DNA of 64,000 nucleotides, taken from contig NZ_CP102270.1 in the NCBI RefSeq assembly GCF_025148445.1, positions 2,281,001-2,345,000 on the forward strand, in the 5' to 3' direction. The position numbers were made by a program, and so were the translations under genes. The stretch is from Eshraghiella crossota. GTDB taxonomy: Bacteria; Bacillota; Clostridia; Lachnospirales; Lachnospiraceae. The notes under the pieces are model-generated. The model was not told the DNA's origin. It did not search any database and saw only the letters and a list, made by a program, of their open reading frames with translations. Of this stretch, positions 48,075 to 52,804 are shown piece after piece (within the stretch, counting starts at the first letter, position 1; the number at the start of each line of letters is the position of its first letter).

Positions 48075-49451
48075 ATGTCACATATTAATTATAACAGTCC
48101 TATCCATGTTCACTTCATCGGCATCGGTGGAATAAGCATGAGTGGACTTGCAGATATTCTTTTTTCAAAAGGTTTTACAATTTCAGGCTCAGACTCTAAA
48201 GAATCAGAACTGACCAGGAACCTTATATCCCAGGGCATTAAGGTTTTCATCGGACAGAAGGCAGACAACATAACTGACGATATTGACCTCGTAGTATATA
48301 CCGCAGCGATTCACAATGACAATGAAGAACTTGCTGCTGCCAGGGCAAAAAATATTCCCGTAATAACGAGAGCCGAGCTGCTTGGAGAGATTATGACCAA
48401 CTACAAAACAGCAGTCGGTGTGTCCGGTACCCACGGTAAGACAACAACCACTTCCATGCTTACCGAAATTCTTGTGAATGGCAGCCTTGACCCTACCGTA
48501 TCCGTAGGCGGAATTCTTCCATCCATACATGGTAACTTAAGAATTGGCCATTCTGATAATTTTGTGACCGAAGCCTGTGAATATACCAACAGCTTTTTAT
48601 CATTCTTTCCGACTATTGAGATTATACTTAATATAGAAGAAGATCATCTTGACTTTTTTAAAGACATTAACGATATCCGTAATTCCTTTGGACGTTATGT
48701 CAGACTTCTCCCTGAGAACGGTCTTCTGGTAATTAATAATGACATTGATAATGTTGAAGAAATTTATAAAAATGCCGCTTGTCCCGTTATAACAGTTGGA
48801 AAAACACCTGATGCTGATTATACAGCAGATAATATCTCCTTTGATGAATTCGGCTGTCCTTCTTATGACCTTATCCGTCAGGGAAACACAATCGGCAGAA
48901 TAGCCCTCAGTGTTCCGGGGATTCATAATGTATATAACAGTCTTGCTGCCATTGCAGTTGCAATCCACTTAGGAATAGACATCAGTACAATTATTGACTC
49001 ACTTAAAGGTTTTCACGGTACTGACAGACGTTTCCAGAAAAAAGGAACCGTAAATGGTTTTACAATAATTGATGACTATGCGCACCACCCTGCAGAGATT
49101 AATGCAACTATTAATTCAGCAATGAATTACCCTCATAAAAAGCTTGTCATCATATTCCAGCCTCACACATATACGAGAACCAAAGCTTTTCTTAAGGACT
49201 TTGCAGATGTGTTAAAGAGGGCCGACCTTGTAATACTTCCTGATATTTATGCAGCAAGGGAGACTGATACCCTCGGAATTTCGTCAAAAGATATTGCCGA
49301 CCTTATAAACGCTGCAGGAACGGAATGTATTTACGAACCGGACTTTGATAAAATATGCCAAATAATACTTGACCGCTGCCGGAAAGGCGATCTTGTAATA
49401 ACCATGGGTGCAGGAAATGTGGTAGATATTGCCGACCGTCTTACCAGATAA
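48075..49451 (+). CDS. murC: UDP-N-acetylmuramate--L-alanine ligase
   Basis: The 458-residue ligase adds L-Ala to UDP-MurNAc in peptidoglycan synthesis. It has the N-terminal GIGGISMS (16-23), the ATP loop GTHGKTTT (118-125), the central NIEEDHLDFF, and a C-terminal Mur ligase domain with IDDYAHHPAEI and FQPHTYTRTKAFLKDF. The length is typical. It stands alone between glgC (divergent) and the DnaA boxes that begin 1 bp after its stop. Confidence 0.97.
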   Translation: MSHINYNSPIHVHFIGIGGISMSGLADILFSKGFTISGSDSKESELTRNLISQGIKVFIGQKADNITDDIDLVVYTAAIHNDNEELAAARAKNIPVITRAELLGEIMTNYKTAVGVSGTHGKTTTTSMLTEILVNGSLDPTVSVGGILPSIHGNLRIGHSDNFVTEACEYTNSFLSFFPTIEIILNIEEDHLDFFKDINDIRNSFGRYVRLLPENGLLVINNDIDNVEEIYKNAACPVITVGKTPDADYTADNISFDEFGCPSYDLIRQGNTIGRIALSVPGIHNVYNSLAAIAVAIHLGIDISTIIDSLKGFHGTDRRFQKKGTVNGFTIIDDYAHHPAEINATINSAMNYPHKKLVIIFQPHTYTRTKAFLKDFADVLKRADLVILPDIYAARETDTLGISSKDIADLINAAGTECIYEPDFDKICQIILDRCRKGDLVITMGAGNVVDIADRLTR

Positions 49452-49478
49452 TTATCCACATTATCCACACTATCCACA
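49452..49478 (+). promoter_or_regulatory. Three abutting DnaA boxes upstream of the dnaD-like/dnaC operon
   Basis: TTATCCACA occurs twice (49452-49460, 49461-49469) and is followed by CTATCCACA (49470-49478), one mismatch. All have the same orientation and no spacer. TTATNCACA is the DnaA consensus. An AT-rich stretch (about 49496-49520) and an extended -10 (TGCTATAAT ending at 49533) follow before the DnaD-like gene. dnaA and dnaN are not in the window, so this need not be the replication origin. Confidence 0.75.
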
Positions 49479-49569
49479 ACTTTTGTAAAAAAGGAAGTTT
49501 GTTATTTTTTTTTAATAATTACTGTGCTATAATGACAGCATTCGCATTAAAAACAGGAGTGTCGGATTT

Positions 49570-50613
49570 ATGAAGTATATAGCATTAACCTCATCCGTAA
49601 AAAATCAATATTCAATGGTTTCCAACGTATTTATAGATACGTTTATGCGTGATGCCAACGGTGAGTTTATTAAAGTATATTTATATCTTTTAAGATGTGA
49701 GGACGGTAATATGCCTGTTACCGTAAGTGATATAGCAGACAAGCTTAACATGACTGAGAATGATATTCTGCGGGCATTAAAGTATTGGAACAGCCTTAAA
49801 GTGCTTAAGGTTGAATATGACGGCAGCACACCTGTTTCTATTTGTCTTTGTGACCTTAATCAGCCGGTCCTTGCCCCGGTGGAGGAGATAGCCGTATCAA
49901 AGGAACCTGTGGAGAACAAGAGCACTGCAGTTAAACGTTCATATTCTCCGGCTGAAATCAGACGTCTTTGCGAACAGGAAGACATAAAGGAGCTTTTATA
50001 CATAATCCAGAAATATATGGGTGCCCCTCTTACTCCTACGGAAACAAGCACCGTAATTTATATATATTCCGATCTGGCATTTTCGGCAGAGTTGATTGAA
50101 TATCTGATTGAATATTGTCTGTCCGGCAATCACCGTTCTTTTAACTATATATGTAAAGTTGCAATGAACTGGTATGACAACGGTATCACCACTGTTGCAG
50201 AAGCCAAAGAAACTTCAGGAATAAGGAGCAGCAGGAACGCTGCCGTGTTCCGTTCTTTTGGAATTACGGACAGAAACGTCACACCTATTGAAAGTGAGTT
50301 TATTACCCGTTGGTTTGATGAATACAATTTTAGTACAGAACTTGTGAGTGAAGCCTGTAAAAAGACAATCCTTGCGGTAAGCAAGCCCAATTTTGCTTAT
50401 GCCGAGAGTATTCTTAAGAAATGGCATAATGCAGGGATTACAACTCTCGAAGATGTTAAGAAATTAGAATCCGGTTTCAGGACAAAGATAACTGTTCCGG
50501 TTACTTCAAAAGCTGCACCTGTGCAGCAGTCTGTCAATAAATTTAATAATTTTCCACAGCGTTCTTACAATTTTGATGATTCAAAGGATGATCTTATTAT
50601 CATCAATCAATAA
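49570..50613 (+). CDS. DnaD-domain primosome protein
   Basis: The 347-residue protein has an N-terminal winged-helix-like part (VSDIADKLNMTENDILRALK-YWNSL) and two DnaD/DnaB_2 C-terminal domains: about 135-210 (ending ICKVAMNWYDNGITTVAEAK) and about 222-300 (ending ILKKWHNAGITTLEDVKKL). DnaD/DnaB proteins help load the replicative helicase at the origin and at restart sites in Firmicutes. The helicase loader gene dnaC follows 14 bp later. Three DnaA boxes lie about 90-118 bp upstream. AGGAG precedes the ATG. Confidence 0.9.
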   Translation: MKYIALTSSVKNQYSMVSNVFIDTFMRDANGEFIKVYLYLLRCEDGNMPVTVSDIADKLNMTENDILRALKYWNSLKVLKVEYDGSTPVSICLCDLNQPVLAPVEEIAVSKEPVENKSTAVKRSYSPAEIRRLCEQEDIKELLYIIQKYMGAPLTPTETSTVIYIYSDLAFSAELIEYLIEYCLSGNHRSFNYICKVAMNWYDNGITTVAEAKETSGIRSSRNAAVFRSFGITDRNVTPIESEFITRWFDEYNFSTELVSEACKKTILAVSKPNFAYAESILKKWHNAGITTLEDVKKLESGFRTKITVPVTSKAAPVQQSVNKFNNFPQRSYNFDDSKDDLIIINQ

Positions 50614-50627
50614 GGGAGGATTTGGTT

Positions 50628-51602
50628 TTGGCATTAAGTAATTCCCAGTATGAAGAAATAATGCATGAATATAATAAAAGACAACTGAAGTCAGCAGATG
50701 AACTTAACAGACGTACCGAAGAAGTCATACGTGTGATTCCGGAATATAAAGAATGCCTCGATGAGATATCATCCCTTTCAATCCGTGCGGCAAAGGCAAG
50801 GATATCCGGCAATTCTTCCTCTCTTACTTCTCTTCATAAGGATATTGACTCTTACGTATCACGGATGTCTAAGCTTCTGTCATCTGCCGGTTATCCTGAT
50901 GATTATCTTACCCCTTCTTATGTCTGTAAGGACTGCAAGGATACGGGATACATCGGTAATGAAAAGTGCCATTGTTTTAAGCAGGCAGAAATTGACCTGC
51001 TTTACAGACAGTCTAATATAAAGGATCTGCTTTCAGTACAGAACTTTGAGCATTTTAATATTAATCTGTTTTCTGACGATATCCCGGAAGGGTACAGTGT
51101 AAGTCCCCGTCAGAATATGAAAGCGGCTCTTGAAGTATGTAAATCATTTATAGAGGAGTTTCCTTCCGGCAAGAACCTTCTTTTTCTCGGTTCCACGGGT
51201 GTTGGGAAGACATACCTTACAAATTGTATAGCCAAAGAAATTCTTGACAGATACCACAGTGTAGTTTATCTGTCCGCTATCGAACTTTTTGATTATTTTT
51301 CTTCAAAAAATGATCATTACGAATATTCGGGACTTGACAATTCTGACAATTCATTGCAAATTATAAGTTGCGACCTGCTTATTATAGATGATTTGGGCAC
51401 AGAATTAATTAACAATTTTACAACCTCGAAGTTATTTTATTGTATCAATCAGAGATTATTGGAAAAACGTTCAACCATAATCTCTTCTAATTTTGATAAA
51501 CAGAGTTTGCTGGCCGCATACTCAGAAAGAATTTTTTCACGTATTTTCACATCATATAATATTATCAACCTTATCGGTGATGATGTGCGTAAGAGAAAAT
51601 AA
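50628..51602 (+). CDS. dnaC: Helicase loader DnaC/DnaI-type AAA+ ATPase
   Basis: The 324-residue protein has an N-terminal helical part, a small Cys cluster (CKDC and CHC, about 100-116) and an AAA+ domain with Walker A GSTGVGKT (188-195) and Walker B LLIIDDLG (D254-D255). It matches DnaC/DnaI loaders that place the replicative helicase on DNA with DnaD/DnaB partners. GGGAGGA lies 7 nt before a TTG at 50628, the chosen start; an earlier TTG touches that site. prs follows 26 bp later, so the three may share an mRNA. Confidence 0.93.
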   Translation: MALSNSQYEEIMHEYNKRQLKSADELNRRTEEVIRVIPEYKECLDEISSLSIRAAKARISGNSSSLTSLHKDIDSYVSRMSKLLSSAGYPDDYLTPSYVCKDCKDTGYIGNEKCHCFKQAEIDLLYRQSNIKDLLSVQNFEHFNINLFSDDIPEGYSVSPRQNMKAALEVCKSFIEEFPSGKNLLFLGSTGVGKTYLTNCIAKEILDRYHSVVYLSAIELFDYFSSKNDHYEYSGLDNSDNSLQIISCDLLIIDDLGTELINNFTTSKLFYCINQRLLEKRSTIISSNFDKQSLLAAYSERIFSRIFTSYNIINLIGDDVRKRK

Positions 51603-51628: not shown

Positions 51629-52804
51629 ATGCAGAACGATCGCGATCTTGAGACAATTCCTGTAGGTGCACTTGGTCTGATTAACCTTAACGGTTGTGAG
51701 GCACTTGGTCAGAAAATCAACAACTATATTGTTGACTGGCGTAATGAAAGAGAAAATGAACACAAAACAACATTAGCCTTTGCAGGATATCAGAGAGACA
51801 ATTATATCGTTAAGGCTGCCGTTCCACGTTTTGGTTCAGGTGAGGCAAAGGGTGTAATCAACGAATCAGTCCGTGGTTATGACTTATACCTTTTGGTTGA
51901 CGTATGTAATCACAGCCTTACTTACAATCTTTGTGGCAAGACAAATCATATGTCACCTGATGACCACTATCAGGATCTTAAGAGAATAATTGCAGCCGTA
52001 GGAGGTAAAGCAAGACGTATTACGGTTATTATGCCTTTTCTCTATGAAAGCAGACAGCATAAGCGAAGCGGAAGAGAATCCCTTGACTGTGCCCTGGCTT
52101 TAAGAGAACTCGTATCAATGGGTGTTGATAATATAATCACATTTGATGCCCATGATCCAAGAGTACAGAATGCGATTCCTTTGAATGGATTTGAAACCGT
52201 ACAGCCTGCATACCAGTTTATTAAAGCACTTCTTACCAATGTAAATGACCTTAAGATAGACAGCAATAATATGATGATTATAAGTCCTGATGAAGGTGCT
52301 ATGGGACGTGCCGTTTATTATTCTAACGTGCTCGGACTTGATATGGGTATGTTCTATAAGAGAAGAGATTATTCCCGTATTGTAGACGGACGTAACCCAA
52401 TTGTTGCCCATGAATTTTTAGGTTCTTCGGTTGAAGGCAAAGATGTGTTTATCATTGATGATATGATTTCTTCAGGTGAAAGCATGCTTGATGTTGCAAG
52501 AGAGCTTAAGAAAAGAAAAGCTAAGAGAATTTTCCTTGCTGCTACATTCGGTTTATTTACAAACGGTATGGCCAAATTCGATGAAGCCCACGAATCAGGT
52601 CTTTTTGACAAGATTCTTACAACCAACCTCGTATATCAGTCTCCTGAACTTTTAAGCAGGGATTACTATATAAGCGTAGATATGAGTAAATACATTGCAT
52701 TACTTATTGATACACTTAACCATGATGCTTCAATCAGCGACCTTCTTAATCCTGTTGAGAGAATCAACAAACGCGTAAATGCATATAAAGAATCACATAA
52801 ATAA
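51629..52804 (+). CDS. prs: Ribose-phosphate pyrophosphokinase, long divergent type
   Basis: The 391-residue protein belongs to the PRPP synthetase family, which makes PRPP from ribose-5-phosphate and ATP. The PRPP-binding loop is VFIIDDMISSGES (about 272-284), and a catalytic-His region is TFDAHDPRVQNAIPLNGF. It is about 75 residues longer than classical Prs (about 315), with an extra N-terminal segment and insertions. The metal/ATP regions differ from the standard DLHxxQIQGFF. I judge it the functional Prs or a close paralogue. A strong GGAGG precedes the ATG. Confidence 0.88.
   Translation: MQNDRDLETIPVGALGLINLNGCEALGQKINNYIVDWRNERENEHKTTLAFAGYQRDNYIVKAAVPRFGSGEAKGVINESVRGYDLYLLVDVCNHSLTYNLCGKTNHMSPDDHYQDLKRIIAAVGGKARRITVIMPFLYESRQHKRSGRESLDCALALRELVSMGVDNIITFDAHDPRVQNAIPLNGFETVQPAYQFIKALLTNVNDLKIDSNNMMIISPDEGAMGRAVYYSNVLGLDMGMFYKRRDYSRIVDGRNPIVAHEFLGSSVEGKDVFIIDDMISSGESMLDVARELKKRKAKRIFLAATFGLFTNGMAKFDEAHESGLFDKILTTNLVYQSPELLSRDYYISVDMSKYIALLIDTLNHDASISDLLNPVERINKRVNAYKESHK

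Follow-up and report, generated by a model that had tools for sequence, protein, structure and literature searches.

What role could three spacer-free DnaA boxes play between murC and a pair of helicase-loading genes? A preliminary description of 64,000 nucleotides of the Eshraghiella crossota genome (the window; positions 2,281,001 to 2,345,000 of the genome, which is one contig of 2,521,323 bp) had noted such boxes and proposed that DnaA might regulate its own loading partners there, or that the cluster might act as a DnaA titration site or a secondary initiation site. DnaA is already known as a regulator, DnaA-box clusters are known outside oriC, and the Caulobacter replication genes dnaB and dnaQ are described in a review as being under DnaA control (PMC8203912). 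Replication control in the group of gut bacteria considered here is almost unstudied. If the regulatory reading is true, loader supply would be coupled to initiator activity in a large group of gut bacteria.

A tandem array of DnaA boxes abuts murC

Two perfect boxes and one near-perfect box were found at exactly the positions first described (Table 1), all on the plus strand with a pitch of exactly 9 bp and a spacer of 0 bp. The array had been placed 1 bp after murC; the gap is in fact 0 bp, as the TAA stop codon (49449-49451) runs directly into the first box. When the 64-kb window was shuffled 300 times with dinucleotides preserved, no shuffle produced the triple, and 3 produced a tandem pair (up to one mismatch allowed per box). 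Genome-wide box counts derive from pattern searches, and in these the murC-dnaD array was the sole tandem pair with at most one mismatch in 18 bases across the complete genome, in line with the earlier judgement that chance triplication is unlikely. Profile matches likewise confirmed the gene assignments, with murC upstream and the dnaD-like and dnaC genes downstream. The dnaD-like product has two DnaD/DnaB_2 domains, and the dnaC-like product matched the DnaI and DnaC models more weakly than its best profile. A search of the window for RNA families and tRNAs found none.

The same kinds of proteins, the DnaD-like CD3653 and the helicase loader CD3654, are present in Clostridioides difficile, a related Firmicute in which the Bacillus DnaB is absent; unlike in our proposal, the accessible part of that source reports no control of the corresponding genes by DnaA (PMC7561715).

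Table 1. Features at and around the murC-dnaD gap (positions in the window)
Feature	Position	Strand	Details
murC, UDP-N-acetylmuramate--L-alanine ligase	48075..49451	+	TIGR01082 E=6.5e-145; ORF; stop codon abuts box 1
DnaA box 1, TTATCCACA, perfect	49452..49460	+	predicted -88 to -80
DnaA box 2, TTATCCACA, perfect	49461..49469	+	
DnaA box 3, CTATCCACA, one mismatch	49470..49478	+	predicted -70 to -62; end 46 bp before extended -10
Degenerate -35 region, TTTTTT	49505..49510	+	17 bp before -10 hexamer; position from aligned promoter profile of 74 gaps
Extended -10, TGCTATAAT	49525..49533	+	hexamer 49528-49533; TRTGCTATAATG conserved across relatives
Predicted transcription start	49540..49540	+	inferred from -10 position only
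dnaD-like gene, primosome / helicase-loading protein	49570..50613	+	PF07261 E=2e-46; TIGR01446 E=1.1e-31
dnaC-like AAA+ helicase loader	50622..51602	+	PRK06835 E=6.8e-107
Ribose-phosphate pyrophosphokinase-like gene	51629..52804	+	PRK06827 E=1.8e-181; synteny, next in conserved order

The array recurs in relatives with the same gene order

A DnaD-like protein was present in 113 of 116 relatives, mostly one relative per genus. The stretch upstream of the dnaD-like gene was read at 110 loci, and murC precedes it in 96 of them, the window's own included; the order murC, array, dnaD, dnaC recurs across the family. With up to one mismatch allowed, these 96 murC-dnaD gaps (95 from relatives and that of the window) held 377 boxes and 113 tandem pairs at 9-bp pitch, where shuffled sequences gave 12.5 and 0, respectively. 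Tandem boxes were found in 62 of the 96 gaps counting the window, or 61 of the 95 from relatives; with the window excluded, 50 of 68 family gaps and 11 of 27 gaps from other relatives had them. One or more boxes, one mismatch being allowed, were present in 63 of the 68 family gaps and 20 of the 27 others, so that five family gaps were boxless. Versions of the array occur in dozens of genera of related gut-type bacteria. The murC-dnaD gap accounted for 76 of 150 listed tandem pairs, over 64 genomes. An independent scan of named genomes placed about 28 of 80 perfect pairs among the matches listed between murC and dnaD, and nearly all of the murC-dnaD pairs among those matches were titled Lachnospiraceae or other Clostridia.

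Within the genus, four of the five members compared, the genome of the window included, keep the boxes at the same 46-bp spacing from the promoter; the other three of these carry one perfect box and one box with two mismatches. The fifth member (G001) retains the gene order and a -10 element and has no boxes. Absence of the boxes from close relatives with the same gene order had been named as evidence against the array, and it was seen in this one congener; otherwise the comparison spoke for the array, because the boxes are conserved in the murC-dnaD gaps of relatives. As judged from these comparisons, the array is a deeply conserved putative control element.

Relatives often carry two box groups, one of which can overlap a murC terminator

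The usual layout in relatives is richer than that of the window, with two groups of boxes and, in many cases, four to seven boxes. Group I begins 0-3 bp past the murC stop codon and consists of two boxes, often with a third 12 bp on; group II follows about 90-190 bp beyond group I, has two to four boxes and is succeeded by the promoter. In 40 of 89 gaps group I is also part of an intrinsic murC terminator, in which it supplies the 5' arm of a perfect hairpin with a T-run behind it; this double use of a box group appears to be new. It also raises the question of whether the repeat is only the stem of a murC terminator, its likeness to DnaA boxes being a by-product. We consider this very improbable, since a search for intrinsic terminators found no terminator-like site at the boxes of the window, group II of relatives forms no stem of this kind, and the 9-mers fit the DnaA consensus much more closely than a stem would require. 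The single group of three boxes in the window, which lacks the terminator, is a reduced version of the layout.

Other motifs were seen in these gaps. A conserved TTTACATAA motif often follows the terminator hairpin, about 63-75 bp past murC (L019, L028, L030, L036, L040, L178, L180 and others), and is sometimes mirrored by TTATGTAA ahead of the second box group. TTCGACA, the reverse complement of the Spo0A box, lies between the box groups in some longer gaps (L020, L022, L023, L030, L034, L036, L040, L189 and L192); it is over-represented there, in 9 gaps against about 1 expected, and is absent from the window. Through this 0A-like box, sporulation could possibly be linked to loader supply. 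Comparison with the distribution of spo0A gives little contrast, because the gene is present in most relatives (90 of 116 above the cut-off) and the 0A-like box is absent from the window.

The array keeps a helical phase with the dnaD promoter

Alignment of 74 gaps on the extended -10 element gave the profile TT(T/C)T(C)(A/T), 17 bp, TRTGCTATAATG, a predicted sigma-A-type promoter with a poor -35 region and an extended -10. Spacing was taken as the distance between the nearest array's end and the TG of the extended -10; the values clustered at 46, 55-57, 65-67 and 76 bp, with a period of 10-10.5 bp, and the window has 46. The Rayleigh R of the array-end distances was 0.705 at a period of 10-10.25 and 0.50 at a period of 9. 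After two clades of near-identical rows were reduced, R was 0.67 (n=45) and was reached by none of 20,000 jittered sets (p < 5e-5), a P value that is optimistic because the rows are related and that applies to spacing classes found by looking, post hoc. Distances from group I boxes were unphased (R 0.31, p 0.57).

At least nine changes of spacing class are needed on a DnaC tree of 33 loci, and for the 46-bp class the starred branches alone force at least three separate changes; because of these repeated changes, the spacing classes are not one shared inheritance. In a wider search of the family with exact patterns, the distance spectrum had its peak at 9.25-9.75 bp. This peak arose because the search also picked up exact boxes at more upstream positions of the arrays and because a group of genomes shares a 49-bp spacing. 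The array-end definition was used for the phasing instead of these exact-pattern distances. The peak near 9.5 bp suggests that gain or loss of boxes at the 9-bp pitch contributes to the spectrum. Within these limits, the 10-bp steps from array to promoter are good evidence for a protein at the array that acts on the dnaD promoter.

DnaA as the predicted regulator of its loading partners

The oriC of this genome uses the same box, and we infer that DnaA is the protein concerned. The three boxes are likely to be a regulatory array at which DnaA binds to control the promoter of the dnaD-dnaC helicase-loading operon. To judge from the sequence comparisons, the occurrence of versions of the array across dozens of genera, a whole number of helical turns from the promoter, makes it very probable that DnaA governs the supply of its loading partners. 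Regulation of these genes by DnaA was thus the best supported of the roles first proposed, through a conserved site before dnaD-dnaC and its phasing to a conserved promoter. In the mechanism we propose, DnaA would occupy one face of the helix at about -88 to -62, probably with its protomers side by side in a short row, and would contact RNA polymerase at the sigma-A promoter with its poor -35 and extended -10. DnaA would thereby act as an upstream activator, most likely raising dnaD-dnaC transcription. Loader supply would then track the level or nucleotide state of the initiator, giving a feed-forward loop from initiator to loader.

If DnaA does act here, activation is the sign we favor, and repression would have a lesser, though real, chance. 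Repression of dnaD-dnaC from the same array, a sub-case of the regulatory explanation that would create a negative feedback loop, is on the whole somewhat unlikely. DnaA represses dnaA and several Bacillus operons (accessible part of PMC4447404; PMC13220808), yet the boxes here lie upstream of the -35 region without overlapping the promoter, the poor -35 resembles that of activated promoters, and the position of the array is phased. A DnaA-activated gene is also known: DnaA activates sda in Bacillus. As described in the accessible part of the same report (PMC4447404), the Bacillus subtilis sda promoter likewise has a DnaA-box cluster upstream; its target is a sporulation checkpoint gene, unlike dnaD-dnaC here, and helicase-loading genes are not among the strongest DnaA regions named there. 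In Caulobacter crescentus, DnaA boxes likewise precede the replication genes of the regulon (dnaB helicase, dnaQ), but the helicase gene is targeted rather than a loader operon, and the phylum is unrelated (accessible part of PMC8203912).

A literature search that reached few of the subscription papers found no report of DnaA control of helicase-loader genes in Firmicutes, and none of a spacer-free DnaA array or DnaA helical phasing for this group. Searches for DnaA boxes with murC/dnaD, helicase loaders, Lachnospiraceae or hpf also returned no prior report.

Titration or a second origin accounts less well for the array

The preliminary description had asked for the placement of the site relative to oriC and the GC skew. 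The genome has an ordinary rpmH-dnaA-dnaN oriC, and this lies 191 kb from the array, because dnaA starts at contig base 1 and the rpmH-side genes end the contig. Measured in 4-kb steps, GC skew was negative on both sides of the site, and no change of sign was found there. The suggestion of a secondary initiation site is therefore disfavoured. A second or ectopic origin would account for DnaA boxes beside an AT-rich stretch and helicase-loading genes; however, the AT-rich stretch is the promoter and the 9-bp pitch differs from the 11-12 bp that prevails at oriC (see below). We regard it as the least probable of the readings weighed here.

The murC-dnaD array is a DnaA-box cluster outside oriC and might alternatively serve as a sink of high affinity, buffering the pool of free DnaA near oriC as Bacillus clusters do, with control of dnaD-dnaC incidental. 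The boxes are of consensus type, many relatives have four to seven of them in two groups, and in 8 of 10 single-contig genomes no more than 9% of the chromosome separates the murC-dnaD site from dnaA (the distance is 191 kb here, 287 kb in G049 and about 45 kb in G092). In the other two genomes, G096 and G113, the operon is 27% and 12.5% away, and the three boxes of the present genome are few for a sink. Moreover, a sink needs no fixed helix face relative to a promoter, yet phasing was seen, and it need not precede one operon in dozens of genera. Titration as the main function is thus unlikely, although it may be a side effect alongside regulation. Bacillus DnaA-box clusters and E. coli datA, which serve titration or DnaA inactivation, are likewise box clusters outside oriC (PMC5295017); the array here differs from them in being phased to the promoter of one operon.

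Box pitch differs between the promoter array and oriC

Among neighbouring boxes up to 30 bp apart in the dnaD gaps, 111 of 161 pitches were 9 bp. Of 22 such pitches in oriC regions, taken from this genome and ten others, 14 were 11-12 bp and one was 9 bp (Fisher p 4e-9 for the contrast, on non-independent counts). The oriC boxes of the family share the pitch of E. coli, whose DnaA prefers boxes 2-3 bp apart, that is, a pitch of 11-12 bp (PMC11317965). The double DnaA box of E. coli likewise consists of adjacent boxes in the same direction that DnaA binds as a pair, but one added base pair strongly cuts binding there (PMC11317965), whereas the spacer here is 0 bp. DnaA thus seems to face two geometries, and the difference between array and oriC pitch in the same genomes appears to be new. 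More speculatively, the two geometries might have two jobs: 11-12 bp at oriC for opening, and spacer-free 9-bp arrays at promoters (dnaD-dnaC, hpf), where a row of DnaA would contact RNA polymerase and be unable to open DNA. Box pitch would then serve as a code by which initiation and gene control are kept apart, and it would tie loader supply to initiator activity. With this contrast one can test directly how a single protein distinguishes origin opening from gene regulation.

A second recurrent array was seen upstream of hpf (long-form ribosome hibernation factor, often beside secA) in many Clostridia. It mostly comprises one box, about 43 bp, and then a 9-bp tandem, and the nearest promoter-like site is far from the boxes (L004, L244-L246, L248, L250, L251, L253-L255 and L258; also L055, L083, L092, L107 and L110). 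The copy in the genome of the window (L004, near 2,108,369) is a weaker form. One oriC region (L247; G020 contig 132, 1-4500) has about 40 DnaA boxes around dnaA, far above the other oriC regions read.

Other repeats were also encountered. A mobile-element-like repeat starting TTATCCACAACTGCG has about 8 copies in G029 and 13 copies in G244, on many contigs. A near-identical TATCCACA...TATAAT stretch occurs in four copies in the genome (G000:C1:2470460, 2481618, 2492776 and 1002421; L264, L267-L269). Three of the TATCCACA copies are exactly 11,158 bp apart and perhaps belong to a large tandem repeat near oriC.
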